Assembly: GCF_000383575.1 (NCBI RefSeq)
Contig: NZ_KB911579.1
Location: 4,983,424-5,047,423 of the forward strand
Direction: 5' to 3'
Source: Salinispora oceanensis
Lineage (GTDB): Bacteria; Actinomycetota; Actinomycetes; Mycobacteriales; Micromonosporaceae
Length of the DNA stretch: 64,000 nucleotides
Part shown: piece by piece, positions 1 to 22,753 of the stretch
How positions within the stretch are numbered: the first letter of the stretch is position 1
Layout: every line of letters begins with the position of its first letter
Notes under the pieces: generated by a model
What the model was told of the DNA's origin: nothing
The model's input: the letters and a program-made list of their open reading frames with translations, nothing else
Databases searched by the model: none
Translations under genes and position numbers: made by a program

Positions 1-1018
1 CATCAACCAGGTAACGCAGGTTCTCGGCGTAGACGGCGCGCTGTCGGACCGTTGCCGCGACCAGGCTGCAATCGTGGGCGAGCAGCACACCGCCGACCAC
101 CGCCTGGGCCACCGGCGAGGTGTTCACCGAGACCATGCTCTTGACCTTGGCCAGCTGGTCGGCGAGGAGGCCCGGCGCACCGTCGGCGTCCCCCACCGAC
201 TGGTCGGCCACCACGTAGCCAACCCGTGCGCCGGGCAGCACCGTTTTCGCGAACGATCCCAGGTATACCACCTGACGATTGGTGTCCAAGGCCTTCAACG
301 TGGGCAGCCGCCGACTCTGCGTGGCCGGGAAAAGTCCGTACGGGTTGTCCTCGATCAGGAGCAACTCCTCCTCGGCGGCCAGGTCCAGCAGCGCCCGCCG
401 GCCGGCCAACGAAATGCTGGTGCCCGACGGATTGGCAAAGTCCGGCATCAGATAGCAGGCGCGCGGACGCAGCCCCTCCGCCCGGGCCCGATGCACCTGG
501 CCGCGCAGGTCCGCCAGGTCCACCCCGGAGTCCGTCGTCGCCACCGGGCGGACCGGAAAGTCCAGCAGCCGTGCTGCTCCGGTAAGCCCCACATAGGTCG
601 GCGCCGCCGCGAGCAGGACATCCCGGGGACCGGCGCGTAGCGCCCGCAGCACCAGGAACATCGCCTCCTGGCACCCGACGGTCACCACGATCGCCTCCGG
701 GTCGACCGTCATCCCCTCGTCCACGGCGAGGTTCCGGGCGACCAGGTGATGCACGATCCCCTTGGTCCGCCCGTACTGGAACAGGGTGCGATGCACCTGC
801 ACCGGGTCCTGGCCGAGGTCATCGACCAGGTGCTGCCGAAAGATGTCCAGGTACCGGTGCAGTGCCGAGAACTCGAAAAACTCCTCGTACGGCCGGCCAG
901 CGGCGAGTGACACCGCGTCCGGGTAGTCCTGCGCCACCTCGTTCAGGAAGTTCATCGAGTTCAGAGCCGGATCGTCTAGCGCCGGATGCAGGTCGGCCAA
1001 GTGCAGTTCCACGATCAC
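1..1018 (-). CDS. hpgT: HpgT-like PLP aminotransferase (3' end cut by window edge)
   Basis: Fold-type I PLP aminotransferase, read leftward and truncated by the window edge after about 339 codons. The usual family length is about 430, so roughly 90 C-terminal residues lie outside. An N-terminal MNFLNEV segment, an AAGRPYEEFF stretch and the Schiff-base lysine motif SFAKTVLPGARVGY resemble the 4-hydroxyphenylglycine aminotransferases of glycopeptide clusters, which convert 4-hydroxybenzoylformate to Hpg using tyrosine as amino donor. The GTG start at 1018 overlaps the TGA of the hydroxymandelate oxidase (GTGA), indicating translational coupling; an in-frame GTG at 1012 is an alternative. The preceding oxidase and the mandelate synthase at 14600-15700 support the Hpg role. 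Another aryl or aliphatic 2-oxo acid is possible. Confidence 0.8.
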   Translation of the reverse strand, partial: MIVELHLADLHPALDDPALNSMNFLNEVAQDYPDAVSLAAGRPYEEFFEFSALHRYLDIFRQHLVDDLGQDPVQVHRTLFQYGRTKGIVHHLVARNLAVDEGMTVDPEAIVVTVGCQEAMFLVLRALRAGPRDVLLAAAPTYVGLTGAARLLDFPVRPVATTDSGVDLADLRGQVHRARAEGLRPRACYLMPDFANPSGTSISLAGRRALLDLAAEEELLLIEDNPYGLFPATQSRRLPTLKALDTNRQVVYLGSFAKTVLPGARVGYVVADQSVGDADGAPGLLADQLAKVKSMVSVNTSPVAQAVVGGVLLAHDCSLVAATVRQRAVYAENLRYLVD

Positions 1019-2112
1019 TGCACCGTCGTCGTCCGCAGTCGCCGGGCCGCCGCCACGTCGGTGCACCCCGCCAACGTGAGCGCGTCCCGAAGCTCCTCAG
1101 CCAGCAGCGACAGGGCGGTCTCGGCCCCGGCCCGGCCACCGGCCGCCAGCGCCCAGAGCAGCGGGCGGCCCAGCAGGACGCCCCGCGCACCGAGGGCGAG
1201 GGCCCGCAACACGTCCACTCCGCCCCGAACACCGCTGTCCAGGAACACCTCGGCACGGTCGCCCACGGCGTCAACGACCGCGGGCAGCGCGGTCGCGGTG
1301 GCCGGTGCGCCGTCGAGCTGGCGCCCCCCGTGGTTGGAGACCACCACCGCGTCCGCTCCGGCCGTCACCGCGCGAGCGGCGTCACGCGGATCGAGCACCC
1401 CTTTGACGACCAGCGGGACCGCGGTCCGCTCCCGCAGCCACTCCACGTCGTCCCAGCTCACGGCCGGCGCGAAGACCGCGCCGGTGTGTGCGGCCACCGC
1501 GGATACACCCGGGGTCGCCGCGTGGGCGAGGCTGTCCCGGCCGGTGGGTAGGTTCGCGGCGATCACCTCCGGTGGAATGACGAACGAGTTACGCAGGTCC
1601 CGCAGCCGACGGCCGAGAATTGGCACATCCACGGTGAGCACCAGCGCGGTGCAGCCCGCCGCTTCGGCCCGGTCCAGCAGGTCGGCGACGAGCCCCCGGT
1701 CCCGCAGCCAGTAGAGCTGGAACCAGACGTCGCCGCCGGCACGCGCGACCTCCTCGATCGGAATGCTGCCAAGCGTGCTGGCCACATACGGGATGCCGGC
1801 CGCGCCGGCCGCCGCGGCAAGGGCAACCTCCCCGTCGGGGTGCAGCAGCCGCTGATATGCCATCGGCGCGACCGCCACCGGCAGCGCATGGACGGCTCCC
1901 AACAGCCGGGCGTCGGTCGGCGGCGTTGACGTACCGCACAACACTCGGGGCAGCACGCCGGTCTGGTCCAGGGCCCGTCGATTCGCCGCCAGCGTCGTCT
2001 CGGCGCCGCTGCCACCGGCCACGAAGTCCCACACCTCCGGCGGTAGTACCGCGCGGGCGAGGTCGGCGAAGTCGGCCAGCGCCACCGGCGGCCCGCCGGG
2101 CAGCTCAGCCAT
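1015..2112 (-). CDS. hmo: FMN-dependent 4-hydroxymandelate oxidase
   Basis: A 365-residue FMN-dependent alpha-hydroxyacid oxidase (TIM barrel, lactate/mandelate oxidase family). The VVSNHGGRQLD motif carries the catalytic His and substrate-binding Arg, followed by the phosphate-binding DSGVRGG segment. In Hpg pathways this enzyme oxidises 4-hydroxymandelate to 4-hydroxybenzoylformate. The ATG at 2112 was chosen because the family domain begins at once and it overlaps the end of the upstream hydrolase; a longer in-frame extension is low-complexity and inside that gene. It is coupled to the aminotransferase at its end (GTGA), so the last two Hpg steps are translated together, while the first enzyme (HmaS) lies in another operon about 12 kb away. 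Confidence 0.87.
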   Translation of the reverse strand: MAELPGGPPVALADFADLARAVLPPEVWDFVAGGSGAETTLAANRRALDQTGVLPRVLCGTSTPPTDARLLGAVHALPVAVAPMAYQRLLHPDGEVALAAAAGAAGIPYVASTLGSIPIEEVARAGGDVWFQLYWLRDRGLVADLLDRAEAAGCTALVLTVDVPILGRRLRDLRNSFVIPPEVIAANLPTGRDSLAHAATPGVSAVAAHTGAVFAPAVSWDDVEWLRERTAVPLVVKGVLDPRDAARAVTAGADAVVVSNHGGRQLDGAPATATALPAVVDAVGDRAEVFLDSGVRGGVDVLRALALGARGVLLGRPLLWALAAGGRAGAETALSLLAEELRDALTLAGCTDVAAARRLRTTTVQ

Positions 2113-3076
2113 CGTCGGCCGGCGTCCGACGGAGGCGGCGGCGCAGGAAGGTCGCCGCCGCTGCCTGAGCCTCCCGCCCGGCATCGAAGACGCCGGGCAT
2201 GGTGAAGAAGCCGTGGACCATGCCCGCGTACCGGGTGAGGACGGTCTGCACGCCAGCGACGCGAAGCCGGTCGGCGTACCGTTCGCCCTCGGCACAGAGC
2301 GGGTCGTGCTCGGCGGTCACCACGAACGCCGGCGGCAGACCGGTGAGGTCGTCGGCGAGTAGCGGCGACGCGAGTGGGTGTTGGGCGTCGGTCGGGTCGG
2401 CCAGGTAGTGGGACCGGTACCAGGCGACCGAGCGGCGGTTGAACAGCAGCGGATCCTCGCCACCGGGCGGCTCGATCGTCTGGTCGGTGTTCGGGTAGAC
2501 CAACAACTGCGCTACCAGCCGGGGACCGTCCTTCTGAGCCAGCAGCGTGACCGCGGCGGCCAAGTTGCCACCGGCGCTGTCCCCGCCCACCGCGAGCCGC
2601 TCCGGGTCTGCGTCGAACTCCGCTGGATGCGCCGCGATGTGGCGCAGAGCAGCGTGGCAGTCGTGCACGGCCGCCGGGAACGGGTGCTCGGGGGCCAGCC
2701 GATAGCCGACAGTGATCACCTGGCAGGGCACCGCATTGGCCAGTCGCCGACAGACCCCGTCCGCGGTATCGATGCTGCCCAGCGTCCACCCACCGCCGAA
2801 GAAGTAGAGCAGTGTCGGCAGTGGCCCCGGCCCCGCGGGGCGGTACACCCGGACCGGGAGGTCACCGGCCGGTCCGGGGAGGCACGCGTCGCGTACCTCG
2901 TGGACCGGCTCGACCGGGCCGGAGCCAGCCCGGATCGCAGCGAGGTCGGCCGCGCGGGCCTCGGTGAGGGTCTGCGTGTACAGCGGCGGCGTACCGGCCG
3001 CCGCGCGGCCCGCCCGGTACGCCTCAGCCTCAGGATGCAGGCCCACGCCACCACCCCGTGCCGATTGGTCGCTCAC
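2105..3076 (-). CDS. Alpha/beta hydrolase, hormone-sensitive-lipase family
   Basis: A 323-residue esterase of the HSL (bacterial family IV) type. The nucleophile is in GDSAGGN, with the acid in EHDPLCAEG and the catalytic His in MVHGFF. The oxyanion-hole motif reads FFGGGW, so the conserved His of HGGGW is Phe; the backbone Gly residues that form the hole are kept, so the enzyme is probably active. The GTG start directly follows the P450 stop (TGAGTG) and the 3' end overlaps the oxidase by 8 bases, placing it in the P450-hydrolase-oxidase-aminotransferase operon. It may remove an acyl protecting group or release an acyl chain; the substrate is unknown. Confidence 0.8.
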   Translation of the reverse strand: MSDQSARGGGVGLHPEAEAYRAGRAAAGTPPLYTQTLTEARAADLAAIRAGSGPVEPVHEVRDACLPGPAGDLPVRVYRPAGPGPLPTLLYFFGGGWTLGSIDTADGVCRRLANAVPCQVITVGYRLAPEHPFPAAVHDCHAALRHIAAHPAEFDADPERLAVGGDSAGGNLAAAVTLLAQKDGPRLVAQLLVYPNTDQTIEPPGGEDPLLFNRRSVAWYRSHYLADPTDAQHPLASPLLADDLTGLPPAFVVTAEHDPLCAEGERYADRLRVAGVQTVLTRYAGMVHGFFTMPGVFDAGREAQAAAATFLRRRLRRTPADDG

Positions 3077-4303: not shown

Positions 4304-4324
4304 GGCACCTCCCTACGATACGGC

Positions 4325-4358
4325 GGTTCGGGCGGCGGAATTCGCCGCCGCCCGAACC
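4325..4358 (-). terminator. Perfect hairpin between SGNH hydrolase and P450
   Basis: A 14-bp perfect stem (4325-4338 paired with 4345-4358, arm GGTTCGGGCGGCGG) with a 6-base loop, starting 5 bases after the SGNH hydrolase stop. No U-tract follows, as is common in high-GC actinomycetes. It probably ends the secreted hydrolase transcript, but the P450 start is only about 20 bases further on. Confidence 0.7.
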
Positions 4359-4362
4359 AAGG

Positions 4363-5661
4363 TCACAGACCGAGCAGGCGCAAGGAGACGGCGCCGGCCA
4401 TCGCCTGGTTGCCGGCGTCGTTCGGGTGAATGTGATCCCCCGAGTCGTACGCCGGCAACAGCCGGCTGGGCTGTGCCGGGTCACGCAGCACCCGATCGAA
4501 GTCAATGACCCCGTCGAACTCCTTACTGGTGCGCAGATACTCGTTCACCGCCTGCCGGGTGGCCTCCTTCTCCGGCGTCCACACACCCGGCTCGCCGTGC
4601 CCCTCGTACGGCGTCAACGTGCCCACCAGGCTCCGCAGGCCACGTGCCTTGACCTGCTGGTTGATCTGCCGGAGCGAGGTAATGATCGCCTCGGCGGAGT
4701 CGTCGGACATCCAGATGTCGTTGATACCCAGGTGGGTAACCACGGCTCGAGCGCCGTTCTGGGCGAAGATGTCCTCGTCGAGCCGGGCGAGCGCGTTCGG
4801 CCCCAACTCGTTGTAGCCGGGGAATCCGCCTGCTCCCGGCTCCGCACCCTCGTGGTTGAGGCGGTTCCCGGCGAGACTCATGTTGAGCACGGCCGGGGTC
4901 CGGGAGTCCGGACGGGCATCGATGAACCGGTCGGCCAACAGATCCGGCCAGCGCTTGTTGGCGTTGAGCGTGCTGCCGTTGCCGTCGGCGATCGAGTCAC
5001 CGAAAACCACCACTGAGCCGGGACTCTTGCGGCGCTGCACATCGACGCCGGACAGAAAGAACCAACAGCAGTCCGCAAGCCTCGAGAGGCCGGCACCGGT
5101 ATCCGAGGTCAGGTCCTCATCACCGATGAAGCTCGTCTGGCGGGAGGTGCCGTGGAAGGTCACCGGCCCGGTCAGGACCGGGTAGTAGACCGTAACCACC
5201 AGGTCCTGCTGGTCACCGACCGGGAAGTCGATCGGGTCGCTGATCAACTCGGCGCCCTGGTTCATCGTCGCCGAGGTCGCCCCAGAGAAGGTCAGCTCTC
5301 GCACCGTACTGGGGTCGATGTCGGACAGATCGTCAGGAGTTGTCTCGTCCGGTCGCGCGATTGTCGCCCGACCGACCTGGACGGGCTGCTCGCCGTACAT
5401 ATTGCTGAGCCGGACCCGCAGCACCGAACCACCGACGGTGGTGTGCACGATGTTCCGGATAGTTTGGTCCTCAAGGCCCCTGTTGGTCAGGCCGCCCGAA
5501 TTGCCCCGGGCCACCGCGGTCGCCCAACTCGCGGCCCAGGTGTTCTTGCCATGCCTTGCCACCTCGGCTGACGAATCTGCGTTCGCCACCACGCTGGGGG
5601 TGGCGACCATCAGCAGCGCGGCAGCGGCCGCCACAAAATGCCATTTTTTCGGGGTCGACAT
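4363..5661 (-). CDS. Secreted SGNH/GDSL hydrolase
   Basis: A 432-residue secreted esterase/lipase-like protein. The ATG at 5661 follows a strong GGAGG and is followed by a Sec signal peptide (STPKKW then a hydrophobic stretch ending near VVANA). SGNH blocks: Ser in VVFGDSIADG, Asn in HLGINDIW, and the Asp/His pair in DHIHPND. The Cys pair before block I (ADCCWF) could form a disulfide outside the cell. It is divergent from the AMP-ligase operon and separated from the P450 operon by a hairpin, so it may be a host gene rather than part of the pathway. Substrate unknown. Confidence 0.85.
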   Translation of the reverse strand: MSTPKKWHFVAAAAALLMVATPSVVANADSSAEVARHGKNTWAASWATAVARGNSGGLTNRGLEDQTIRNIVHTTVGGSVLRVRLSNMYGEQPVQVGRATIARPDETTPDDLSDIDPSTVRELTFSGATSATMNQGAELISDPIDFPVGDQQDLVVTVYYPVLTGPVTFHGTSRQTSFIGDEDLTSDTGAGLSRLADCCWFFLSGVDVQRRKSPGSVVVFGDSIADGNGSTLNANKRWPDLLADRFIDARPDSRTPAVLNMSLAGNRLNHEGAEPGAGGFPGYNELGPNALARLDEDIFAQNGARAVVTHLGINDIWMSDDSAEAIITSLRQINQQVKARGLRSLVGTLTPYEGHGEPGVWTPEKEATRQAVNEYLRTSKEFDGVIDFDRVLRDPAQPSRLLPAYDSGDHIHPNDAGNQAMAGAVSLRLLGL

Positions 5662-5730
5662 TGAACCTCCATTGTTGGCAGCCCAGCGTCCGTCCCGGCC
5701 ACTGCCGGCGTTCAACTGGGCGTGCTGCGG

Positions 5731-5760
5731 AACGTATCCGTCGCCGCGTGGAGGCGTCAA
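5731..5760 (-). promoter_or_regulatory. Candidate sigma-70-type promoter for SGNH hydrolase
   Basis: On the minus strand, TTGACG (5760-5755) and TACGTT (5736-5731) are separated by 18 bases, which would give a 5' UTR of about 60 bases before the ATG at 5661. The match is good at -35 and moderate at -10. The divergent AMP-ligase promoter must lie in the same 277-base gap (5662-5938), but I see no convincing hexamers for it. Confidence 0.35.
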
Positions 5761-5938
5761 TCAACCTGACCGGCGTGATCAAGTGTCCTGCCGGCCTGGT
5801 CGAAGGCCCCCTTCGGCTCGTGTTTCGTTTCCGTTGCCTCCCCTAGGCTCAGAACTGGTGGCGCGGTCGCTCGTGGCCCGCACCGTGCCCCGGGCACCTA
5901 TCCCCGGGCACATCGCTGCCGTGAATGGGGGCGTCCGG

Positions 5939-7504
5939 ATGGCCGACCGACCGCAGCCGAGCTACGTGCACCAGGCATTGGCGCTTTTCGCCGAATTCGG
6001 GGACCGCCTGGCAATCGTTAACGGTGCACAACGGCTGACCTATACCGACATACACGCCCAGATATGCGGATTCACCACGACACTGCTCCGCCACGGAGTC
6101 CGACCCGGCGCCGCGGTGCTGTTGTCGCTCGGAAATCCAGTGGAAGGCCCACTGCTACAGCTCGCGTTACACCTAATTGGCTGCCGTACGATGTGGATCG
6201 CTCCGGTGACCTCGCACCGGGAGATCAAGGAATTTGTCGCACTCGCCCAGCCCGACGCGCTGCTCTACGATGCCCGCGACCCGGCCAACGTCGGTGCGGA
6301 ACTGGCCGCGGGGCTGGGTGACCGACCGGTGCTTCGCCTCGGCGTAGACCTGGTCCCCGCACCAGCCGCCGCCGACCTGCCCATCCAGGTGCCGGCAGCG
6401 GAGTCTCTCCTGCAGACCTCCGGCACCACCGGCACCCCGAAACTGGTGCGGCACCAGGAGAGCTTCTACACCCAGGTCCTCGCGCTGGCCGCCGGCTTCC
6501 GCACCGCCGGGTTGCCGCTGCTGCGACACCTCTCCTACTCCCCCATGTGGCTGGCCAGTGGCCAGATCACCACCTTGTTCAATCTCTTCACCGGCGGGGT
6601 GCTGTTTCCCCGCGAGGGCTGGGACGCGGTGGAGTTCATTCAGACCGTGCCGGCCGAGCAGATCACCTCCACCTTCCTGACCCCGCCGATGCTCTACGAG
6701 GTGCTCGATCACCCCACCCTGCCCGGTGCCGACTTCACCTCGATGTTCATGTTCAACGTGGGCGCCGGTCCCGCCGCACCCGCCCGGCTCCGCCAGGCGA
6801 TCACTCGATTCGGTCCGGTGCTACGCATCGTGTACGGGCTCAGTGAGGCGGTGGTGGTCACCGCGCAACCGGGCCTGACCGAGGACCCGGCACACCCGGA
6901 GCGCCTGTACTCCTGCGGGGAGCCGTACGGCGACGTACGAATCGAGATCCGCGGCCCAGACGGGGATGTCCTGCCACCTGATGTGGATGGTGAGGTGTGG
7001 GTACAGACCGCACTCCGCTTCGCCGGCTACCACGGCAACCCGGACCTGACGGCAGACACCCTGGTGGATGGTTGGGTACGCACCCGAGATGTCGGCCACC
7101 TCGACGTGGATGGCTACCTGTACCTGGTTGACCGGTTGCAGGACCGGATCCTCACCCGCCGGCGTAGTTGGCCGATCTACTCCCGGCCGATCGAGGACGC
7201 GCTGGCGGGGCATCCCGACGTCCGGGCGGCGGCGGTGATCGGAGTACCCGACGAGGTGGCCGGCGAACTGCCGTGGGCTTACGTGGTGCCGAGGCCCGGT
7301 GCGGCGGTGACCGCCGCGGAGCTGATCGACGTGGTGACCGCCGCGCTCAGCGACACCTGGGCGCCCGGCGGGGTGGAGTTCGTCGCCGCACTACCCCTGA
7401 ACCGCGCCAACAAGGTCGACAAACGGGTCCTCCGGGCGCGGCACGCGGCCAGCCACCCGTCGGCCGTCGAGCACCCGGAGGCGTCGATCGGCCGTCGCGC
7501 GTGA
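5939..7504 (+). CDS. AMP-dependent acyl ligase (class I adenylating, first copy)
   Basis: A 521-residue ANL-superfamily ligase, probably acyl-CoA or acyl-ACP forming. The A3/P-loop is SGTTGTPK, A5 is YGLSE, A7 is VRTRDVG, and the A10 lysine region is NRANKVDKR. The domain begins at the ATG at 5939 (RPQPSYVHQAL); the reading frame stays open about 600 bases upstream but that extension runs antisense through the SGNH gene and is not family-like. An in-frame GTG at 5921 is an alternative. The gene is coupled by GTGA to an MFS exporter. It differs from the other two ligases of the cluster (17009-18625 and 21353-22753) and could activate an aryl or fatty acid; specificity cannot be read from the sequence. 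Confidence 0.85.
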   Translation: MADRPQPSYVHQALALFAEFGDRLAIVNGAQRLTYTDIHAQICGFTTTLLRHGVRPGAAVLLSLGNPVEGPLLQLALHLIGCRTMWIAPVTSHREIKEFVALAQPDALLYDARDPANVGAELAAGLGDRPVLRLGVDLVPAPAAADLPIQVPAAESLLQTSGTTGTPKLVRHQESFYTQVLALAAGFRTAGLPLLRHLSYSPMWLASGQITTLFNLFTGGVLFPREGWDAVEFIQTVPAEQITSTFLTPPMLYEVLDHPTLPGADFTSMFMFNVGAGPAAPARLRQAITRFGPVLRIVYGLSEAVVVTAQPGLTEDPAHPERLYSCGEPYGDVRIEIRGPDGDVLPPDVDGEVWVQTALRFAGYHGNPDLTADTLVDGWVRTRDVGHLDVDGYLYLVDRLQDRILTRRRSWPIYSRPIEDALAGHPDVRAAAVIGVPDEVAGELPWAYVVPRPGAAVTAAELIDVVTAALSDTWAPGGVEFVAALPLNRANKVDKRVLRARHAASHPSAVEHPEASIGRRA

Positions 7505-8736: not shown

Positions 8737-8768
8737 CACCCCGGTGTCTCCTGCGCTAACGTCCGTAC

Positions 8769-9473: not shown

Positions 9474-9479
9474 CGGGTG

Positions 9480-13667: not shown

Positions 13668-13670
13668 GAC

Positions 13671-14603: not shown

Positions 14604-15700
14604 CCCGTCACCTCCTGGGTGGCGGCCAAACCCCCGGCGGAGGCCGCCACCGCCAATTCCCGCTCCTTGGCCTCATAGAGCGCCTTGATGTTGCCGCTAC
14701 CGAAGGTCCGCGCCCCACGCCGCTCGATCAGCTCCAGAAAGAGCGTGCGGCGCACGTGCATCGACTCAGTGAAGATCTGCAGTAGTTGGCCGTCGTGGTC
14801 CCGGTCAACCAGCACCCCGAATTCCCGCAACTGCTCCACGGAGCCGTCGACCTGGCCGACCCGGCTCTCCAGGTCGTCGTAGTAGGCCGCCGGCGTGCGA
14901 GCGAACCGCACCCCGCGCTGGCGCAGCGCGCCGATCGCCCCGATGATGTCGTCGGTGCGCAACCCGAGGTGCTGCACGCCCGCGCCGGAGTGCTGGGCGA
15001 GGAAGGCGTCGATCTGCCCGGCCCGCCGCCGGGTATCCGGTTCAAGCAGCACCAACGTCACCCGACCGGACCGACTCTGCACCACGGTGGAGTTCATCGC
15101 CTGGCCGTCAACCTCCACGTACTCGTGGAAGATCTCGTCGAAGCCGAAGACCTCGCGGTAGCCACGAACCGTCTCGGCGAGTTGCCCGGGCGGCACGCAC
15201 ACCGCCAGATGGTCGATCTCGGCGAGCAGGTTCTCGGCGGCATTTACCGGCGGCAGCTCCGCCAGGCCCGGCAGGAAGTCACCACCGCCTCGACGGCGCT
15301 CGACCAACCGGTGCCGCACATCGGCGAAACCCGCCACCTCGGCGATGACGACCTCGGCGTCCGCGCTGGTGATGGTGGTCGGCGGCAGCTCACTGACCGC
15401 GCCCCGGGCCAGCAGTTCGGCGTACGCCTCGGCGGCGTCGTCAACCGCCAGGGCGACCACAGCGATGCCGTCGCCATGCCGCCGCACATACGCCGCCGCC
15501 GGATGATCGCCGGTCAGCCCGGAGGTGAGCAGCAACCGGATGTCCGCGTGCCGGAGCAGCAGCGACCGCTGCCCGGTCAGCCCGGTCTCCGGGCCACCCT
15601 GGCCGCGCGGCCGCAGCCCCACGGCGTTGCCGAAGTAAGCGGCTGCCTCGCGGGTGTCGTCTACGTAGAGTTCGATGTGGTCTATTCCACGGATGTCCAT
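14600..15700 (-). CDS. hmaS: 4-Hydroxymandelate synthase
   Basis: A 366-residue vicinal-oxygen-chelate dioxygenase that converts 4-hydroxyphenylpyruvate to 4-hydroxymandelate with O2 and Fe(II). The iron ligands are His164 (EIDHLAV), His244 (VQHLGLR) and Glu323 (FLELIER), spaced as in known HmaS proteins. The C-terminal FGSGNIKALYEA segment is typical of the HmaS/HPPD family. Homogentisate-forming HPPD is the main alternative, but the linked hydroxymandelate oxidase and HpgT-like aminotransferase favour HmaS. It follows the ketosynthase gene after a 67-base gap with no visible terminator, so it is probably in the same operon as the KS/ACP genes. Confidence 0.87.
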   Translation of the reverse strand: MDIRGIDHIELYVDDTREAAAYFGNAVGLRPRGQGGPETGLTGQRSLLLRHADIRLLLTSGLTGDHPAAAYVRRHGDGIAVVALAVDDAAEAYAELLARGAVSELPPTTITSADAEVVIAEVAGFADVRHRLVERRRGGGDFLPGLAELPPVNAAENLLAEIDHLAVCVPPGQLAETVRGYREVFGFDEIFHEYVEVDGQAMNSTVVQSRSGRVTLVLLEPDTRRRAGQIDAFLAQHSGAGVQHLGLRTDDIIGAIGALRQRGVRFARTPAAYYDDLESRVGQVDGSVEQLREFGVLVDRDHDGQLLQIFTESMHVRRTLFLELIERRGARTFGSGNIKALYEAKERELAVAASAGGLAATQEVTG

Positions 15701-15767
15701 GTCCCAGCCTTTCCCACAGATCCCCCGCGCTGGTCGTGCGGGCGTTCCGCCCGCGAAGGTCGCACCG

Positions 15768-17012
15768 TCAAGTCCGCGGCCGGGTGGCTCGCGCGAGTAG
15801 CAGGCTCACGTTCTGCCCCCCGAACCCGAAGGAGTTGGTCAGCGCAAAGCCGGTCTCGGTCGCCCGGGGCTCCTTACGGATGTGATCAGCCGGGCACGCC
15901 GGGTCCGGGTCGTCGAGGTTCCAGGTCGGCGGAAGCAGGCCCCGCCCAAGTGCCAGGGCGGTCGCCGCCGTCTCCAGCACTCCGGAGGCCCCGAGCAGGT
16001 GGCCGGTGAGCGCCTTGGTGGAGCTGACCGGTACCCCGTGCACGCCAAAGACCTCGGCGAGTGCCGTGGTCTCGGCGATGTCGCCGAGTTTGGTTCCGGT
16101 GCCGTGCGCGTTGACGTAGCCGACCTCGGCCGCCGGCACCGGCACGCGGCGGCCGGTGAGCGCCCGCCGGATCGACTCGGCCGCGCCGGTGCCGTCGGGC
16201 CGGGGTGCGGTCGGATGGTAGGCGTCGGTCGTCACCCCGTACCCGGCGATCTCCGCGTACCCGGTGGCGCCCCGGGCCGCGGCGTGGGCGGCGCTCTCCA
16301 GCACCAGCAGGGCCGCTCCCTCGGCGAGCACGAACCCGTTCCGGCGAAGGTCGAACGGTCGGCTGGCCTCCGTCGGGTCGGCCCATCCGCGGGCGAGAGC
16401 GCGGGCGTTGCCGAAGGTGTCGGCGAAGGTCGGGAAGAGCGGCGCCTCGCTGGCCCCGCAGAGCACCACGTCTGCCTCGCCAGCCCGGATCAACCGAACG
16501 GCGTCGGCGACCGCCTGGACACCGGAGGCGCAGGCGGTGCCGACCGAGGAGCTGTAGCCCCGGATGCCGTGCCGGATCGCGATCCGGGCCGACGGCATGT
16601 TCGGCAGTACCCCGGTGAGCAGGTACGGGCTGACTCCCGCTCGCCCCCGGGCCGCCCGGGTGAGCACCTGCGTCTCCAGGGTGGCCAGGCCGCCGACCCC
16701 GCCGACGATGACCGCCGCCCGCTCCGGGGCAACGTCCCGGCCCACCTCGAGACCAGCATCGGCGAGGGCGTCCGCGGCGGTGAGCAGGGCGAGCAGCACG
16801 ATCCGGTCCAGGACCTTGGTGTCCGGCCCGGACGCTACCGACCGCGGGTCGATCGCCGGTAGCACCCCGGCGACCTCCAGGCTTCCGGCGGCGGGGTGGT
16901 CGGCCGGCGGACGGGCCAGCCCAGAGCCGCCGGTGCAGAGCGCCTCGAAGGTGGCCGCAGCCCCTCGGCCTACCGGGGTGTACAAACCCATCCCGGTGAT
17001 GACCGCGGTCAT
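15768..17012 (-). CDS. Stand-alone beta-ketoacyl synthase (KAS II type), intact triad
   Basis: A 414-residue condensing enzyme with the full Cys-His-His set: Cys161 in GTACASG, His in NAHGTGTKLGD and His in TGHLLGASG. It resembles FabF-type and aryl-polyene/type II ketosynthases more than KS-alpha of aromatic PKSs. Its ATG overlaps the ligase stop (ATGA). With the KS-like protein at 19137-20216 and the carrier proteins at 20209-20714 it forms a minimal type II condensing set. Because no KR, DH or ER is present, the expected product is an unreduced beta-ketoacyl unit on an ACP (inference). Confidence 0.88.
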   Translation of the reverse strand: MTAVITGMGLYTPVGRGAAATFEALCTGGSGLARPPADHPAAGSLEVAGVLPAIDPRSVASGPDTKVLDRIVLLALLTAADALADAGLEVGRDVAPERAAVIVGGVGGLATLETQVLTRAARGRAGVSPYLLTGVLPNMPSARIAIRHGIRGYSSSVGTACASGVQAVADAVRLIRAGEADVVLCGASEAPLFPTFADTFGNARALARGWADPTEASRPFDLRRNGFVLAEGAALLVLESAAHAAARGATGYAEIAGYGVTTDAYHPTAPRPDGTGAAESIRRALTGRRVPVPAAEVGYVNAHGTGTKLGDIAETTALAEVFGVHGVPVSSTKALTGHLLGASGVLETAATALALGRGLLPPTWNLDDPDPACPADHIRKEPRATETGFALTNSFGFGGQNVSLLLARATRPRT

Positions 17013-18625
17013 CGGGACACCTCACTCAGGTAGCGTTCCCGCAGCGCCACCTTGCGAACCTTGCCCGTCACCGTGACCGGGATGTCGGCGGAGCGGACCG
17101 GAACCACCCGCCGTAGGGTCGCCCCGACCTCCCCACCCAGCGCCTCCCGAACCGCCGCGGTGCGGTCCGTGGTCTCATCCGCGTCGGTGGCCAGTTCCAG
17201 CAGCACGTCGGTGACGACACCGGCCGGCTGGCGCACCATGACCACCGTGCAGTCGGTGACCTCGGGGCAGGCGGCGAGGATTCGTTCCTCGGAGAGCGCG
17301 GTGTAGAAGCGCTTTCCGTCGACCGAGTCGACCGAGTCGACCGCGCGGTCCAGGTGGTAGTACCAGCCGTCGGCATCGGCGTAGACCAGGTCCCCGGTCA
17401 GGTACCAGCCGCGCTGGCGGTAGCGATGGGTGGTGACCGAGTCGTTCCAGTAGCCGCGGAACAACGACGGCGAGTCGATACCCAGCCAGCCAGCTTCGCC
17501 CGTGGGCACCGGCTCGCCCGCCGTGTCCAGCACGGCGGCCCTCGTGAACTGGTACGGCCGACCGATGCACCGTCCGTACCGCTCGGTCTCCTGGGTATGG
17601 GTGATGTGGAACATGGAGTGTCCCATCTCGGAGGAGCCGAGACCGTCAATGAACACCGAGCCCGGCACCCGGGTGACCCCCCTGCGGGTCATCACGTCCC
17701 GGGAGCCGACCGCCACCAGGTGCCGGATGTGTGGCTCGTGCGACGAGTCACCGGTGTTGAACCACAGCCGTACCGAGTCCAGGTCGTGTCCGGCCAGATC
17801 GCACCGGGCCAGCTCGGCCCAGGTGACGGAGAAGCCGAACACCCCGTCCGGGCGCCAGCGCTGGATGGCCTCCAGAACCCGCTCTCCACCTTGTTCGGAG
17901 AGGAGGAGCATCTCCGCGCGGTTGCCGAGCACCTGGTTGACCATGAGCACGGTGGCGGTGTGTGGGGCGGGCAAGGCACTCAGGATCCGGCTGGTGCCCT
18001 GCGCCTGCGGCATACTCAGCAGGTGCCGCGTCGCCGCGAAGAGGCTGGCGTGCGAGTGCAGCACCGCCTTCGGCACTCCGGTGGTGCCGGAGGTGTGGGT
18101 GATCACGATCGGGTCGTCCGGGTGGTGCCGGTAGTGGGCGGGCGCCGCGTCCGGGTCACCGCTGCCGGCCTCGGCCGGGGTGCCCAGCACCGGGACCCCA
18201 AGGTCGTGTTCGGCGAGCAGCGTTCGGTGTGCCTCGTCGGCGAGCACCGCGACGCCCCGCAACCGCCGGATGTACTCGGCGGCGATGGTCGGCTGTAGCT
18301 GCCCGTTCATCAGCGCCGGGATCGCGCCCAGCCGGGTCAGCGCGAGGTAGCTCAGCACCATGTCAGCGACCGCGGTGGCCCAGACCGCCACCGGGTCACG
18401 GGGACCGATTCCCCGTTCGTGCAGCCAGGCGGCCCGAGCTGCCACCCGGCGGTCGAGCTGTCCCAGCGTGAGCGCCGTCTCCGCCGGGTGCCCGTCCAGC
18501 GCGGTGTCGAACGTCAGGCAGGGCGTATCCGGGTCGGTGCCATGCGCAAGCACCCGCTCGAGCACGTTCCCGGCGCCAATGTGACTATCGGCGGCGAGCA
18601 GCCCACGAATTCCCCGTGGTCTCAT
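17009..18625 (-). CDS. AMP-dependent acyl ligase (second copy)
   Basis: A 538-residue ANL-family ligase with P-loop THTSGTTGVPKAV, A5 GLGSSEMG, A7 YLTGDLVY and A10 lysine VTGKVRKVAL. The ATG at 18625 has a strong GGGGAGGAG site; the longer open frame upstream crosses other genes. A 9-bp tandem repeat near 17319-17342 encodes a duplicated DSV unit just before the C-terminal domain, in the hinge region. It is coupled at both ends (ATGA) to KS genes, so it most likely loads the starter acid for that KS set, onto CoA or directly onto one of the two ACPs. Confidence 0.85.
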   Translation of the reverse strand: MRPRGIRGLLAADSHIGAGNVLERVLAHGTDPDTPCLTFDTALDGHPAETALTLGQLDRRVAARAAWLHERGIGPRDPVAVWATAVADMVLSYLALTRLGAIPALMNGQLQPTIAAEYIRRLRGVAVLADEAHRTLLAEHDLGVPVLGTPAEAGSGDPDAAPAHYRHHPDDPIVITHTSGTTGVPKAVLHSHASLFAATRHLLSMPQAQGTSRILSALPAPHTATVLMVNQVLGNRAEMLLLSEQGGERVLEAIQRWRPDGVFGFSVTWAELARCDLAGHDLDSVRLWFNTGDSSHEPHIRHLVAVGSRDVMTRRGVTRVPGSVFIDGLGSSEMGHSMFHITHTQETERYGRCIGRPYQFTRAAVLDTAGEPVPTGEAGWLGIDSPSLFRGYWNDSVTTHRYRQRGWYLTGDLVYADADGWYYHLDRAVDSVDSVDGKRFYTALSEERILAACPEVTDCTVVMVRQPAGVVTDVLLELATDADETTDRTAAVREALGGEVGATLRRVVPVRSADIPVTVTGKVRKVALRERYLSEVSR

Positions 18626-19140
18626 GGTCGGTCTCCTCCCCCCAGCAGCACGGCGACAGCTGACTCCACATCGCCGTCGTCCGGTGCCGTGTCGATCAGG
18701 ATCAGCAACACCGCGTCGGCGTCGCCGTCGTACAGCAACAGGTCGGCCTGGGCGAACCCGGCCGCCCGTGGGTCGTCGGTCGGCGCGAGGCAGACCACCG
18801 GTCCACCCAGCCCCCAGCGGGCGGCTACGTGACCGGCCACGCTGTTCGGCACCGACTGGAAAAAGAACAGCGGTCCCGGCCGACGGTCGGCGGCGACCGC
18901 GGCCCGCACGTGCGCCGCGCTGGCCTCGTCGCCGGTCGGGCTGACCAGCACGATCGCGGTACGCTCGGCGTCGGCGGCCGGGGTGGCTCGGTACGCCCGG
19001 CGCAGGCAGCGATCCGCTACCGCCGCCACCAGCGGGTTGAACGCCGAGTGGACGAATCCTGGTAGCGGCGGTACCGCGTCGTCGCCCGGCTCCGGCCAGG
19101 CCGCCTGAGCCCGAATGGTCGGTCCACTCGGGCCGGTCAC
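18622..19140 (-). CDS. Short beta-ketoacyl synthase N-domain-like protein
   Basis: 172 residues, GTG start overlapping the KS-like gene stop (GTGA). The middle (VPNSVAGHVAARWGLGGP) resembles the part of a ketosynthase before its active-site Cys, and the length and composition match the small KS N-domain family found in aryl-polyene and dialkylresorcinol clusters. There is no catalytic Cys or His motif, so a structural or chain-length role is more likely than catalysis. Assignment is by pattern only and is moderate. It is a separate short gene between a ligase and a KS-like gene, not a broken copy: both ends are coupled and there are no internal stops. Confidence 0.6.
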   Translation of the reverse strand: MTGPSGPTIRAQAAWPEPGDDAVPPLPGFVHSAFNPLVAAVADRCLRRAYRATPAADAERTAIVLVSPTGDEASAAHVRAAVAADRRPGPLFFFQSVPNSVAGHVAARWGLGGPVVCLAPTDDPRAAGFAQADLLLYDGDADAVLLILIDTAPDDGDVESAVAVLLGGGDRP

Positions 19141-20216
19141 GTCGCCCCCACCAGCAGTGCGGTGCTCGCGCCGCCGAAGGCGGCGTTGAGGGTGAGCGCG
19201 TAGCCGGTAGCCGCCGGTCGGGGCGCGTCCCGGATGACATCGAGCGGGCAGTCCGGGTCCGGTCCGAGCCAGCCCGCGTTCACCGGCAGCTTGCCGCGCT
19301 GCAGCGCGAGCACCGTCACCACCAGTTCCAGTAGGCCGGATGCCTCCAGGGCATGCCCGTGCAGGGCTTTGGTGGAGCTCACCGGTACCCGCTGGGCCGT
19401 CGGGCCCAACGCGGTCCGCAGCGCCGCCGCCTCGGCCGCGTCGCCCGGCCCGGACCCGGTGGCATTGGCGTTGACATAACCGATGTCCGCTGGGTCACGG
19501 CCGGCACGAACCAGCGCGGCGGTGATCGCCCGGGCCAGGCCACGGCCCTTCGGTTCCGGCTGGCACGGATGGAAGGCGTCACCGGCCCGTCCCCATCCGA
19601 GCAGGCCGGCGATCGGTTGCCGGGCGGTGTCGGCGCGTTCCAGCACCACCGCCGCCACTCCGTCGCCGAGCAGCAGGCCGGTCCGCCCGAGGCTGAACGG
19701 TCGCACCGCCGCATCGGTGGCGAGTGCCCGGCCGACGTCGAAGAGGGCGTACTGGTCGGGCTCGACCAGGTAGCCGGCGGCGACCACGGCCCGGTTGACC
19801 TCGCCGCGACGCAGCAACACCGCCGCGTCGGCGACCGCATTGGTTCCCGAGACGCACGCCGTGGTGTATGTGCGCACGGCGGGGAAACCGGTGGCCGCGG
19901 CGAGGCCAGCGCTCAACGTCGGTACGGACCTCCCGCCATGCACCGCGAGCAGCAGTGCCGCCTCAGCGCGTTGGGACGCGGTGAGCCTCGCCGAACGGCA
20001 CGCCATCATCACCGCCTCGGTCAGTTCGTCGGCGAGTGGACCGGTATCCGGCAGGGTGGCCGCCGCGTTGACCCGCCGGGGGCTGGTGTTGAACCGACCG
20101 ACCGGCCGGAACGCGGGGATTCCGGCAAGCACCCCGGCCACCTGCGCCGCGGCACCCCGACCGAGTGCACTGGTCGCGTGGACACCGGTGAGGAGAACAT
20201 CGGCCGGCTCAGCCAT
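19137..20216 (-). CDS. Ketosynthase-like protein with Asn in place of first catalytic His
   Basis: A 359-residue thiolase-fold condensing-enzyme homologue, shorter than the usual 400-415. The Cys is kept (Cys121 in TTACVSG) and the second His is kept (ALHGHALEAS), but the first His motif reads NANATGSGPGD, with Asn for His. Loss of that His would impair decarboxylation, so this may be a chain-length-factor-like partner of the KS at 15768-17012, or an acyltransferase. The ATG at 20216 overlaps the end of the preceding carrier-protein gene by 8 bases; a longer in-frame extension is not family-like. Confidence 0.82.
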   Translation of the reverse strand: MAEPADVLLTGVHATSALGRGAAAQVAGVLAGIPAFRPVGRFNTSPRRVNAAATLPDTGPLADELTEAVMMACRSARLTASQRAEAALLLAVHGGRSVPTLSAGLAAATGFPAVRTYTTACVSGTNAVADAAVLLRRGEVNRAVVAAGYLVEPDQYALFDVGRALATDAAVRPFSLGRTGLLLGDGVAAVVLERADTARQPIAGLLGWGRAGDAFHPCQPEPKGRGLARAITAALVRAGRDPADIGYVNANATGSGPGDAAEAAALRTALGPTAQRVPVSSTKALHGHALEASGLLELVVTVLALQRGKLPVNAGWLGPDPDCPLDVIRDAPRPAATGYALTLNAAFGGASTALLVGAT

Positions 20217-20448
20217 CGGCGACGGCCAGGGCGGTCTGGAATACCACCAGTGCGTCGTCAATGGTGCGAATCCCGGCGAGTTGGTCATCGGTGAGGTCGA
20301 GTCGCCGGTCATAGCGCTGCTCGACCAGGTGCACGAGCCAGGCCAGCTCCATCGAGCCGATCCGCTCGGGCTGGTCGGTGGGTCGGTCGGTGAGCTGGGC
20401 GAGCATGGCCACCAGGTCGCCTCGCGCCAGGTCGGGCTGACCGGCCAT
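20209..20448 (-). CDS. Small acyl-carrier-like protein with GSM motif
   Basis: 79 residues, mostly helical. The segment ERIGSMELAWLV aligns with the phosphopantetheine site of ACPs, but the usual Asp-Ser-Leu is Gly-Ser-Met; the acceptor Ser is kept. The ATG overlaps the first ACP stop by one base (TGATG) and the 3' end overlaps the KS-like gene. Two adjacent discrete ACPs also occur in aryl-polyene-type clusters. Whether this one is modified is uncertain. Confidence 0.7.
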   Translation of the reverse strand: MAGQPDLARGDLVAMLAQLTDRPTDQPERIGSMELAWLVHLVEQRYDRRLDLTDDQLAGIRTIDDALVVFQTALAVADG

Positions 20449-20714
20449 CAGGAGTGGTCGCTCGGCGCCCCGGCAAGCCGGTTGGCGACCATCGTGGTGA
20501 ACTCGCCCACCGTCATCAGAGCCAGCTGCTCCGACTCCTCCTCGGCGAACGTCAGCCCGTACCGGTCCTCGACCCGGACAGCCAGGTCCGCGAGGGCCAG
20601 GGACTCCAGGTCCACTCCCGCAGGCCCGAGAGTGGCGTCGTCGTCGATCCCCTCCACGTCGTAGTTCATGTCGGTAAGTTGCTCGATGACGAAGGCGCGG
20701 ACCTCGGCTCTCAT
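20448..20714 (-). CDS. Discrete acyl carrier protein
   Basis: An 88-residue acidic ACP and first gene of the 12-gene leftward operon. The 4'-phosphopantetheine serine is in GVDLESLALADL. The ATG at 20714 has a strong purine-rich ribosome site (GGAGAGAGG). The divergent PPTase starts only 15 bases away, so the operon promoter must lie inside the PPTase gene. Expected partner of the neighbouring KS and ligases. Confidence 0.85.
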   Translation of the reverse strand: MRAEVRAFVIEQLTDMNYDVEGIDDDATLGPAGVDLESLALADLAVRVEDRYGLTFAEEESEQLALMTVGEFTTMVANRLAGAPSDHS

Positions 20715-20729
20715 GGTTAACCTCTCTCC

Positions 20730-21458
20730 GTGAACCTGTCACCGGTGTCGGGTCGGGACACCGTCTACGTCTGGATTGGTCGGGGTTCTGGCGGTCAGCC
20801 GGTCTCAGCCGAGCGGCTGCTGCGACAGGCCGCCGCTGGGGTGCTGGACTGTCCGGCGGCGGACCTCGTGGTGACCCACCGGCCCGGCGCGGCTGCGCAG
20901 GTCACCAGGGACACGGGCCGGAGCCGGGTCACCGTGCCGGCGAGTGTGAGCCGTGGCGGCGGCGTGACGGTGGTCGCCCTCCGGACCGGCGGACCGGTGG
21001 GGGTGGACGTCGAGCAGTGCCGTCAGCTGCCCGCGCTGGGCCTGGCCCGCCGCTGGTTCGACCCGGCCGAAGTGGCCTGGCTCGCCGCCCGTCCCGAAGC
21101 CGGACGGAGTCGGGACTTCCTGCGGTTGTGGACCGCGAAGGAGGCCGTCGGCAAGGCACTCGGCCTCGGTCTGCGCGCTGGGGGTCCGGGCCGGCGGATG
21201 CCAGTCCCCGGCCCCGGAGGGATGCGCCCGGTGCCGGCTGTCGCCGATGTCTGGGTCGGCCATCCCCACTGCCCCGGGACGCTGCTCCTGGCGGTAGCGG
21301 CGGTCGGCGGCGAAGCTGAGATGGTCGTCGTCGGGGAGGCGGAGCAACCTGGTCACGATGTCCCTGCCGTCCGCAGCGTGTCCACCGAGCGCACCAGCTT
21401 GCCGGTGGTCGTGCGGGGCAGCTGGTCGAGCAGCCGCAGGGTACGGGGCCGCTTGTAG
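20730..21458 (+). CDS. Sfp-type 4'-phosphopantetheinyl transferase
   Basis: 242 residues with the PPTase motifs: Asp93 and Glu95 in GVDVEQ (Mg/CoA binding), and WTAKEAVGKALG (Trp134, Lys137, Glu138, Lys142). It would activate the two ACPs encoded beside it. No Shine-Dalgarno sequence precedes the GTG at 20730; GTG at 20745 is an alternative start. The last 106 bases overlap tail-to-tail with the ligase on the other strand, and the C-terminal 40 residues look low-complexity, so the essential domain ends before the overlap. Confidence 0.85.
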   Translation: MNLSPVSGRDTVYVWIGRGSGGQPVSAERLLRQAAAGVLDCPAADLVVTHRPGAAAQVTRDTGRSRVTVPASVSRGGGVTVVALRTGGPVGVDVEQCRQLPALGLARRWFDPAEVAWLAARPEAGRSRDFLRLWTAKEAVGKALGLGLRAGGPGRRMPVPGPGGMRPVPAVADVWVGHPHCPGTLLLAVAAVGGEAEMVVVGEAEQPGHDVPAVRSVSTERTSLPVVVRGSWSSSRRVRGRL

Positions 21459-22753
21459 CTGGCGAGCCGCTCGGCGAGCTGTTGGTCCAGGGTCGCCTCG
21501 GTGAGGGTGCCCACCGGCTGCACGTACGCGGTGATGCCGTCGTCCCAGACGACCACCGCGGCGGCGACCCCTGGCAGCTCGGCGACCGTATTCTCCACCT
21601 CGGTGAGATCCACCTTCATCCCGCCGACGGAGACCTGGGAGTCGAGCCGGCCGTGGATGGTCACCAGGCCGCTGGCCGGGTCCACAGTGCCCGCGTCCCG
21701 GGTGTGTAGCCAACCTTCGGACCAGCGAGATGGATCGGTGCCGCCGAGGTACGGGGAGGCAGGGCAGCTCACCTGCAGCTCGCCGGCGACCTCGCGAACC
21801 TCGAGGCCGGGGACGGGGACGATCCCTGGCCGATGTCGTCCATGCAGGTCAGTGCCGATGACTCCGACCTCGGTCATCCCATACATGTTGCCCAGCGGCA
21901 CGCCGAACCGATCGGTAAAGGAGCGAACCGTGGCGGCCGGCACCAGTTCCCCACCGGTGATCATCCGGGCGAACATGGGCAGTGGCCGGTCGAGCTGGGT
22001 CGCGGCCAGAAGTCCGATATGGAAGGGAACGCCGAGAACGGTGGCTGGGCTGTCGGCGGCGCCGATCGCATCGAGTACCGCCGCGCCGCTGAGTCGTTCC
22101 GGTGGGACCAGTTCGACGCCGGCGTGCAGCCCGTAGAGCAGGCCGCCGACGAGGCCGAGCACGTGCACCATGGACGGAAGCAGGATGAGTCGTTCACCGG
22201 GTAGGGCCACACCATCGAGTTGGGTGTAGCGACGCACCTCAGCGATCAGGTCGGCGGCGGTCCGACCGATCACCTTGGCGGGCCCGGTGGAGCCGGAGCT
22301 GAGTTGGACCACCGCGTGGTCGGTGGCGGCCGGGCGGTCGCCGTACGAAGTGACTCCCTCGGTGACCTCGACGAAGACTCGTAGTGCCGCGCCACCGGTG
22401 CGGACCGGCGCCACGACCACCTGTGGGGTGAGCCGTCGCAGCGCGCGGTCGGCCTCGTGGTCGGTGAGGCGATGGTCCAGCAGGATGGCCTGGGCACCGC
22501 TCCGCCAGGTGGCGAGCAGGTTCACCACGTACGCCAGGGACGGCGGCAGCCGTAGCGCGACGGCACCCCCGGGGCGCAGTCCAGCGGCGCCGAGGCGGGT
22601 CTGCGCCTCGGTGACCAGCCGGTGTAGAGTGCCGCGGTCGACCGGGGCGGGGAGCCGGAAGCAGACGTCGGCCGGTTTGCCGGTAAACAGAAAATCGTCC
22701 ACCCAGTCGGGATCGGTCGAATTGGAATAGTGGGACGAGGGTTTCCCGTTCAC
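21353..22753 (-). CDS. AMP-dependent acyl ligase (third copy)
   Basis: A 466-residue ANL-family ligase, shorter than the other two. P-loop QLSSGSTGPAK, A5 YGMTE, A7 WLHTRDAG, A8 GRLDSQVSVGGMK, A10 RTTTGKLVR. The compact size resembles acyl-ACP ligases of aryl-polyene and benzoate-activating type. The GTG at 22753 lacks a strong ribosome site; a 6-bp hairpin (22778-22783 with 22790-22795) lies 25-42 bases upstream of the start and could affect its translation. It is transcribed alone; the PPTase gene converges on its 3' end. Confidence 0.84.
   Translation of the reverse strand: MNGKPSSHYSNSTDPDWVDDFLFTGKPADVCFRLPAPVDRGTLHRLVTEAQTRLGAAGLRPGGAVALRLPPSLAYVVNLLATWRSGAQAILLDHRLTDHEADRALRRLTPQVVVAPVRTGGAALRVFVEVTEGVTSYGDRPAATDHAVVQLSSGSTGPAKVIGRTAADLIAEVRRYTQLDGVALPGERLILLPSMVHVLGLVGGLLYGLHAGVELVPPERLSGAAVLDAIGAADSPATVLGVPFHIGLLAATQLDRPLPMFARMITGGELVPAATVRSFTDRFGVPLGNMYGMTEVGVIGTDLHGRHRPGIVPVPGLEVREVAGELQVSCPASPYLGGTDPSRWSEGWLHTRDAGTVDPASGLVTIHGRLDSQVSVGGMKVDLTEVENTVAELPGVAAAVVVWDDGITAYVQPVGTLTEATLDQQLAERLASYKRPRTLRLLDQLPRTTTGKLVRSVDTLRTAGTS

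Follow-up and report, generated by a model that had tools for sequence, protein, structure and literature searches.

The stretch of DNA analysed here, hereafter the window, comprises 64,000 nucleotides of Salinispora oceanensis (positions 4983424–5047423 of a 5.43-Mb contig). It carries a cluster in which genes for the supply of L-4-hydroxyphenylglycine (Hpg) lie with those for discrete ketosynthases (KS) and acyl carrier proteins (ACP), a ligase (ANL_b) that groups by sequence with N–N-bond-forming enzymes, and a DUF3050 protein homologous to HamA (Table 1). Genes were called with a codon model of our own, not with a published gene caller, and the 22 genes called between positions -301 and 22702 were scanned for Pfam domains; many functions of flanking genes, and of genes in the neighbourhoods of relatives, were assigned by eye. 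Papers are cited by PubMed Central (PMC) identifier, for the excerpts available.

A first-pass annotation of the window had listed a hydroxymandelate synthase (HmaS), a hydroxymandelate oxidase (Hmo), an HpgT-like aminotransferase, two KS-like proteins, a protein resembling a KS N-terminal domain, two ACPs, a phosphopantetheinyl transferase (PPTase) and three AMP ligases. All are present in the families given, the names HmaS and Hmo coming partly from context. Ketoreductase (KR), dehydratase (DH) and enoylreductase (ER) genes had been described as lacking, and none occurs among the Pfam matches of the 22 genes; the KR and DH genes that characterize a highly reducing type II polyketide synthase (PKS) are thus not found in the cluster. 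HmaS was rightly placed in one operon with the KS and ACP genes, as the minus-strand genes between 9549 and 20714 overlap or are separated by 0–67 bases. Beyond these genes, the locus contains a PhyH-family oxygenase, the DUF3050 protein, E1 alpha and beta subunits, an ATP-grasp-like protein (a single match in the PDB, E 0.26), a cytochrome P450 and an aromatic type II PKS region. The His-x-Asp motif of PhyH is conserved in 7/7 sequences.

Table 1. Features of the locus, in window coordinates; counts in the last column refer to main-type relatives
Feature	Position	Strand	Family and evidence
HpgT-like class I/II aminotransferase	1..1018, continuing to -301 left of window	-	PF00155
FMN-dependent alpha-hydroxy acid oxidase, Hmo-like	1015..2112	-	PF01070 1.7e-127
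Alpha/beta hydrolase (abH)	2105..3076	-	PF07859; 10/10 extended relatives
Cytochrome P450	3077..4303	-	PF00067; 10/10 extended relatives
GDSL hydrolase GDSL2	4363..5634	-	PF13472 (on 4363-5760); 10/10 extended relatives
AMP ligase ANL_a	6191..7504	+	PF00501 (on 5318-7504); 10/10 extended relatives
Major facilitator superfamily (MFS) exporter	7501..8736	+	PF07690 (on 7168-8736); 9/10 extended relatives
GDSL hydrolase GDSL1	8769..9473	+	PF13472; 8/10 extended relatives
ATP-grasp-like protein	9549..10916	-	PF14403 3.6e-6, under curated cut-off; 18/18 main-type relatives
E1 beta-like (thiamine pyrophosphate, TPP)	10921..11886	-	PF02779/PF02780
E1 alpha-like (TPP)	11887..12858	-	PF00676 (on 11887-12969)
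DUF3050, haem-oxygenase-like di-iron protein, HamA homologue	12855..13667	-	PF11251 3.8e-96
PhyH-family Fe(II)/2-oxoglutarate oxygenase	13671..14603	-	PF05721
Hydroxymandelate synthase-type dioxygenase (HmaS)	14600..15700	-	TIGR01263 329 bits
KS1, FabF-like ketosynthase	15768..17012	-	PF00109/PF02801; Cys-His-His intact
ANL_b, AvaA6/Tri17-type ligase	17009..18565	-	NF058622 470 bits
Short partner resembling KS or chain length factor (CLF) (CYF), AmcG-like	18622..19140	-	PF13723; NF058659 34 bits
KS2	19137..20216	-	PF02801/PF00109 (on 19137-20312)
ACP2	20209..20448	-	no Pfam match
ACP1	20448..20714	-	PF00550 20.3 bits, cut-off 20.8
PPTase	20730..21371	+	PF01648
ANL_c, ligase proposed to load ACP1	21353..22702	-	PF00501 (on 21353-22753)
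Aromatic type II PKS region, spore-pigment type	23917..34952	unspecified	ABM and SchA-like by Pfam, rest by eye

Conservation and distribution of the cassette

Within the genus, a KS2 match (E<=1e-50) was found in 93 of 160 genomes. Twenty loci were read, 18 of which are of the main type; all 18 carry ANL_c, both ACPs, KS2, the short partner, ANL_b, KS1, HmaS, PhyH, DUF3050, the E1 alpha and beta genes and the ATP-grasp-like gene, and a PPTase match is absent in two. The block extends to the aminotransferase in 10/10 extended main-type relatives, single ones being without MFS, GDSL1, PPTase, ABM, FMO or carboxylase matches. PhyH matched in 7/394 genomes of the class. In a named genome collection, 235 PhyH-type stretches matched and the best 80 were kept, giving a sample of PhyH-bearing loci only, in which genes were counted in flanks of up to 10 kb. 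HmaS, which is independent of the search query, is present in all 80 loci, followed by KS1 and ANL_b (69 each), ANL_c (65), ACP1 (63), E1 alpha (61), E1 beta (58), the short partner (55), KS2 (54), ACP2 (52), DUF3050 (45), Hmo (39), the aminotransferase (24) and abH (22). The aminotransferase often lies just past the flanks: in 16 of the 20 genomes queried it sits on the same contig as PhyH at a distance of up to 16 kb, the others having it by an assumed contig match (one), on other contigs (two) or at least 48 kb away (one). The cassette is, then, widespread across actinobacteria in many versions and not unique to this genome, a breadth that the first-pass annotation had not foreseen. These loci define a large and apparently undescribed family of cassettes in which Hpg supply is combined with discrete KS/ACP enzymes and a ligase of the N–N type. 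The earlier statement that no described pathway corresponds to this combination has held so far: among the matches listed in the Creative Commons-licensed PMC literature, none describes such a pathway, nor any joining of hydroxymandelate synthase or Hpg with nitrite/diazo chemistry or with a KS-CYF pair.

Hydroxyphenylglycine supply and the condensing enzymes

The best PDB chains for HmaS are 7yvv (284 bits, labelled 4-hydroxyphenylpyruvate dioxygenase, HPPD), 2r5v (280 bits, labelled PCZA361.1, which we take to be a HmaS) and 3zgj (279 bits, labelled HPPD), after which the score drops to 216 bits for the HPPD 1t47. A separate, better-scoring HPPD (434 bits) is encoded in the same genome at G000:C1:1693303. 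Given these ambiguous structural matches and the better HPPD elsewhere, the choice of HmaS over HPPD rests on paralogy and neighbourhood. The top NCBIfam models for the oxidase are lactate dehydrogenases, below cut-off, and its name as hydroxymandelate oxidase likewise comes from context. HmaS, Hmo and an HpgT-type aminotransferase nevertheless form together the set of genes expected for Hpg supply, under names that are partly contextual.

In NRPS (nonribosomal peptide synthetase) clusters, the same three genes supply Hpg to the synthetase. The first-pass annotation had found no NRPS and suggested looking for one directly to the left. Extension of the sequence revealed none there: no Condensation domain was detected between contig positions 4,747,748 and 5,316,518, the closest matches lying about 235 kb to the left and about 310 kb to the right of the cluster, and the left neighbours of the aminotransferase resemble housekeeping genes by eye. 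The NRPS on the left that would have contradicted the first-pass annotation is thus absent over that distance. Unlike the Hpg genes of NRPS clusters, those described here are proposed to feed an ACP loaded by a discrete ligase, and they are always accompanied by PhyH, by construction of the search.

Residues were compared, and the ANL_b tree described below was built, from loci with a gene call covering at least 80% of the query (68 usable loci for KS1, 50 for KS2, 59 for ACP1, 21 for ACP2 and 67 for ANL_b). KS1 has its Cys-His-His triad in 69/69 rows, and the attachment serine is present in 60/60 rows of ACP1 and 22/22 of ACP2. KS2 retains its cysteine in 51/51 rows and its second histidine in 44, Gln standing instead in the other seven, but Asn replaces the histidine of the HGTGT motif in 43/51. 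Ketosynthases lacking this first histidine are usually non-elongating, and KS2 is probably non-elongating too. The loss makes the second C2 extension by KS2, which the first-pass annotation had allowed for, doubtful. KS2 scores 188 bits with FabF and 144 with AmcF (cut-off 325), under the cut-off of both models. The sole NCBIfam match of the short partner is the AmcG model (cut-off 80 bits), and its predicted structure (pLDDT 82) best matches chain B of the ApeO-ApeC KS-CLF complex. E1 alpha accompanies KS2 in 52/80 loci and stands without it in nine; KS2 is present without E1 alpha in two. The AmcF-AmcG systems (cispentacin/coronafacate), as presented in the excerpts, likewise group a discrete ligase, an ACP, a KS and a short partner resembling a KS in a single operon. 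In contrast to those systems, the scores here fall far under the AmcF and AmcG cut-offs, the HGTGT histidine of KS2 is mostly lost, and the cluster adds Hpg genes and a second, canonical ketosynthase, KS1.

The ligase ANL_b, DUF3050 and proposed N–N bond formation

After the AvaA6 diazotase model NF058622, the next model for ANL_b reaches 149 bits. Its closest solved structures are 8ztz (385 bits), 8tf7/9bq0 (304) and 9xb8 (244), followed by a match of 101 bits; 8TF7 and 9BQ0 are structures of Tri17, an N-nitrosating ligase (PMC11705231). Use of ATP and nitrite is described, in the excerpts, for AvaA6, CmaA6, CreM and Tri17. By sequence, ANL_b is nearer to the nitrite-activating CreM/Tri17/AvaA6 ligases than to other ANL enzymes; it groups with ligases that activate nitrite and form N–N bonds, not with ordinary acyl ligases, and is proposed as a putative ATP-dependent nitrosating enzyme. 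Its closest row among the named loci is that of Salinispora fenicalii (95% identity). A second KS2/short-partner cluster, in a related genome at G037:C13 171273-231272 (L081, L038, L082), has CreE, CreD, a ligase scoring 693 bits with AvaA6 (cut-off 975) and UbiD-like and MaoC-like-looking genes, and is ava-like.

The sole PDB sequence match of the DUF3050 protein is 9vwb, titled HamA (1e-55), which is also the top fold match of its predicted model (E 4.9e-12, the next being 2e-4; pLDDT 80). E93, H105, E177, Y203, H207, D211 and H215 are invariant in 11/11 sequences and agree in residue type and numbering with those given as di-iron ligands of DUF3050 (PMC4520260). The PF11251 domain, the similarity to the solved HamA and the di-iron ligand residues together identify the protein as homologous to HamA, the di-iron protein that has been linked to formation of the N–N bond of fragin. 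MgoB also carries DUF3050 (PMC3298696), and mgo is described as a homologous operon without hamB (PMC5878181). In the ham system, hydroxylamines form without a need for HamA or HamE, and hamA, hamB and hamE mutants fed a 15N dihydrosydnone N-oxide, an intermediate downstream of the N–N bond, yield fragin and valdiazen (PMC11659414). The rescue of the hamA mutant and the formation of hydroxylamine without HamA place the HamA step, as far as the excerpt goes, before or at N–N formation. The ham and mgo operons share the DUF3050/HamA-type protein with this cluster, whereas the NRPS-like protein and the AurF-like N-oxygenase acting on valine, described for ham in the excerpts, were not found in it, and an ANL ligase is present.

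The sister cassettes suggest what this protein may do. TyrA, CreE and CreD adjoin PhyH in six Streptomyces cassettes; in that of S. flavidovirens (L117), CreD scores 691 bits, above the curated nitrosuccinate lyase cut-off of 650, and CreE matches 8cp2 (698 bits), an L-aspartate N-hydroxylase (PMC10404684). CreE and CreD follow E1 beta in seven of eight Actinokineospora cassettes that share one type (L086 has neither), and a ninth, L160, has CreE, with no CreD among the genes called nearby. Of the 69 loci with ANL_b, 14 have CreE (13 of them with CreD), 43 have DUF3050, 12 have neither and none has both (Fisher p 6e-8, descent being ignored). The 11 loci without ANL_b include no CreE/CreD and two with DUF3050, both on short Micromonospora contigs. 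The CreE-CreD pair of the aspartate-nitrosuccinate pathway, found in 13 sister cassettes, is lacking here: neither gene was found in the 124-kb region around the cluster, and CreD has no match in the genome at E<=1e-110. On an ANL_b tree built from 67 of the 69 loci together with the window and, as outgroup, a sequence from another cluster, five changes are needed for the Cre label (outgroup included) and ten for DUF3050, of which well-supported branches require eight. None of 500 label shuffles gave values as low, which indicates clustering by descent combined with repeated exchange; L160 (CreE) is sister to L099 (DUF3050) with support of 100/97. The exchange between DUF3050 and CreE/CreD suggests that DUF3050 is a putative donor of nitrite or nitrosyl nitrogen, that is, the source of the second nitrogen, and offers a direct route to finding the function of HamA.

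Several points weigh against this interpretation. ANL_b remains far under the AvaA6 equivalog cut-off (470 versus 975 bits). Twelve of the 69 ANL_b loci have neither nitrite source, and a search of the further flanks of six of these (five genomes) detected none. The 12 include a short contig (L161), a locus (L164) with another haem-oxygenase-like protein, PF14518, and loci from two genomes (G557 and G589) that have CreD elsewhere; 72 of 134 ava-like clusters are likewise reported to be without CreE/CreD homologues (PMC10777205). The locus counts are not independent, since the loci are related by descent, and the pairing of L160 with L099 is unsure because both are long rows; L160 also showed no CreD nearby. 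Residues 70-101 of the DUF3050 model, a stretch that holds E93, have pLDDT values below 50. The rescue in the hamB and hamE mutants was identical, so that HamA is not singled out (PMC11659414), and an mgoB insertion mutant still produced mangotoxin, at a lower level, although its authors suspect a partly working gene in that mutant (PMC3298696). DUF3050 occurs in 14/394 genomes of the class, and outside the cassette a nearby gene matched ANL_b best among the queries in 11/14 enlarged loci. These loci were not counted as support, because a general ligase model outscored AvaA6 for the ligases in 6/6 scanned.

In L209, L214 and L215, of which L209 was scanned, DUF3050 lies a few kb from aminodeoxychorismate-synthase-like genes and AMP ligases, with no CreE/CreD match, and an arylamine may be involved.

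Proposed pathway and alternatives

The locus belongs with the nitrite-dependent N–N clusters and provides a testable proposal for HamA. The reactions set out here are inferred from gene families, conservation and co-occurrence. HmaS, Hmo and the aminotransferase, all of established families, would convert 4-hydroxyphenylpyruvate via 4-hydroxymandelate and 4-hydroxybenzoylformate into Hpg, which ANL_c and the PPTase may load onto ACP1. KS1 would carry out a single malonate extension, and ANL_b would nitrosate the amino group of Hpg to form the N–N bond, with DUF3050 providing the nitrite or nitrosyl equivalent in the role played by CreE/CreD in sister cassettes. We consider this NRPS-free scheme somewhat likelier to be right than wrong. 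On chemical grounds, the likeliest immediate product would be an ACP-bound alpha-diazo-beta-ketone, which may close, through attack of the active methylene on the diazo group, to a 5-aryl-4-hydroxypyrazole-3-carboxyl unit; whether diazo-ketone or aryl-hydroxypyrazole, the product is a guess. E1 alpha/beta, ACP2, KS2 and the short partner may form a second acyl-transfer module that is optional and probably does not elongate. Tailoring may fall to the ATP-grasp-like protein, the P450 and the hydrolases, and export to the MFS protein. The broader generalization, that proteins of the DUF3050/HamA type generate nitrite or nitrosyl by themselves, can take the place of CreE/CreD and in this cassette lead to nitrosation of ACP-bound, malonate-extended Hpg, with formation of an aryl diazo-ketone or hydroxypyrazole unit on the carrier and without an NRPS, is put forward tentatively and is more probably wrong than right. 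The closest parallels include the ava and cma clusters (avenalumic and p-coumaric acid), which have a ligase-loaded ACP, a ketosynthase with a partner protein, an AvaA6-family ligase and, as in many relatives of this cluster, CreE/CreD. The present cluster differs from them in having Hpg supply in place of a 3-amino-4-hydroxybenzoate (3,4-AHBA) synthase, no ketoreductase, additional PhyH and E1 genes and, in the window, DUF3050 instead of CreE/CreD.

The first-pass annotation had instead proposed a pathway in which an Hpg or 4-hydroxybenzoylformate starter is extended by one or two unreduced C2 units, amidated and oxidized; KS1 and KS2 would then do the extending, all three ligases would act on acyl groups and no N–N bond would be formed. 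The joining of Hpg supply to discrete ACP and KS genes in one operon, with no NRPS near, is supported; HmaS, Hmo, the aminotransferase, KS1, the ACPs and the ligases are real and co-conserved, and the block holds an ATP-grasp-like protein and a P450. The proposal missed the N–N chemistry, however: ANL_b is of the AvaA6/Tri17-like N–N type, CreE and CreD occur in 13 sister cassettes (CreE alone in one), DUF3050 is homologous to HamA, and the KS2 histidine is mostly lost, all of which leaves this pathway unlikely. In a second alternative, diazotization would be transient, the N–N bond being lost as in the ava/cma pathways, where the AvaA6 and CmaA6 products are denitrified later according to the excerpts, or KS2 and its partner would form a carbocycle from a 4-hydroxybenzoylformate triketide in AmcF-AmcG-like fashion. 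None of the genes was recognized as a denitrifying enzyme of the AvaA7 type, no sequence search having been aimed at AvaA7. The AmcG match of the short partner speaks for the carbocycle, in which a C2-to-C6 closure would share the cispentacin register, whereas KS2 scores higher with FabF than with AmcF, and KS2 and its partner are jointly absent from 24/80 loci, which lack only KS2-type functions. A cyclopentenone from this triketide was the initial model of the analysis; it was set back to a rival because of the His-to-Asn change in KS2 and the Cre/DUF3050 pattern. Either form of this alternative is now judged very unlikely.

The least probable alternative, to which we give little credence, is that the cassette makes a building unit of spore pigment as part of the neighbouring aromatic pathway. 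An aromatic CLF match (E<=1e-100) is found in 155/160 genomes of the genus. After omission of seven of 98 KS2 rows (identity of 56% or less, or fragments) and of unlisted CLF rows, no more than 12.5 kb separates main-type KS2 from the CLF in 85/91 rows; the remaining six, five with the genes on different contigs and one from a genome without a listed CLF, cannot be judged. A similar neighbourhood recurs outside the genus in L145 (Actinacidiphila acididurans), where, as in Micromonospora, the cassette has genes for an aromatic KS-alpha, a CLF, a cupin and an ABM as neighbours. On the other hand, main-type KS2 is absent from 60 of the 150 genomes for which a CLF was listed, and G029 has a rearranged cassette that neighbours a type I PKS and is 2 Mb away from the CLF of that genome. 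Of the 35 named-locus genomes in which an aromatic-type KS matched, two have a close KS-alpha (at least 60%) within 50 kb on the PhyH contig, those of L145 (8 kb) and S. fildesensis (34 kb). The aromatic PKS is thus of a near-universal spore-pigment type, next to the cassette in every main-type case that allowed a judgement and yet separable from it; with CLF-bearing genomes that lack KS2 and with distant cassettes, it is rejected as an obligate partner for most relatives. A spore-pigment role for pks3 and the matching type II PKS is itself only thought likely in the excerpt available.

The members of the aromatic PKS region in the window are ABM, CLF, KS-alpha, cupin, ACP-cyclase, carboxylase, SchA-like, SARP and FMO genes. 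Beside this pigment cluster, at 36007-39215, lie two divergent, repeat-rich genes for secreted-looking proteins (by eye). Other versions of the cassette are found elsewhere. By eye, some loci carry HmaS, Hmo, PhyH and the aminotransferase alone; in L070 and L073 (G513, G409) and L162, an EamA-like exporter comes after these four, no NRPS gene is an immediate neighbour, and the set may serve to produce and export a free Hpg-type amino acid. In Streptomyces monashensis (L110), the same four genes, with TyrA, lie beside an ATP-grasp gene (PF13535), a second ATP-grasp-like gene and flavin reductase-like and luciferase-like genes, possibly a dipeptide pathway. At G151:C1:1070541-1130540 (L077, L078, L084), the cassette appears by eye to be combined with type I PKS genes, genes for four flavoproteins resembling halogenases and genes of the pyrrole-forming type, ANL_b and E1 being absent.

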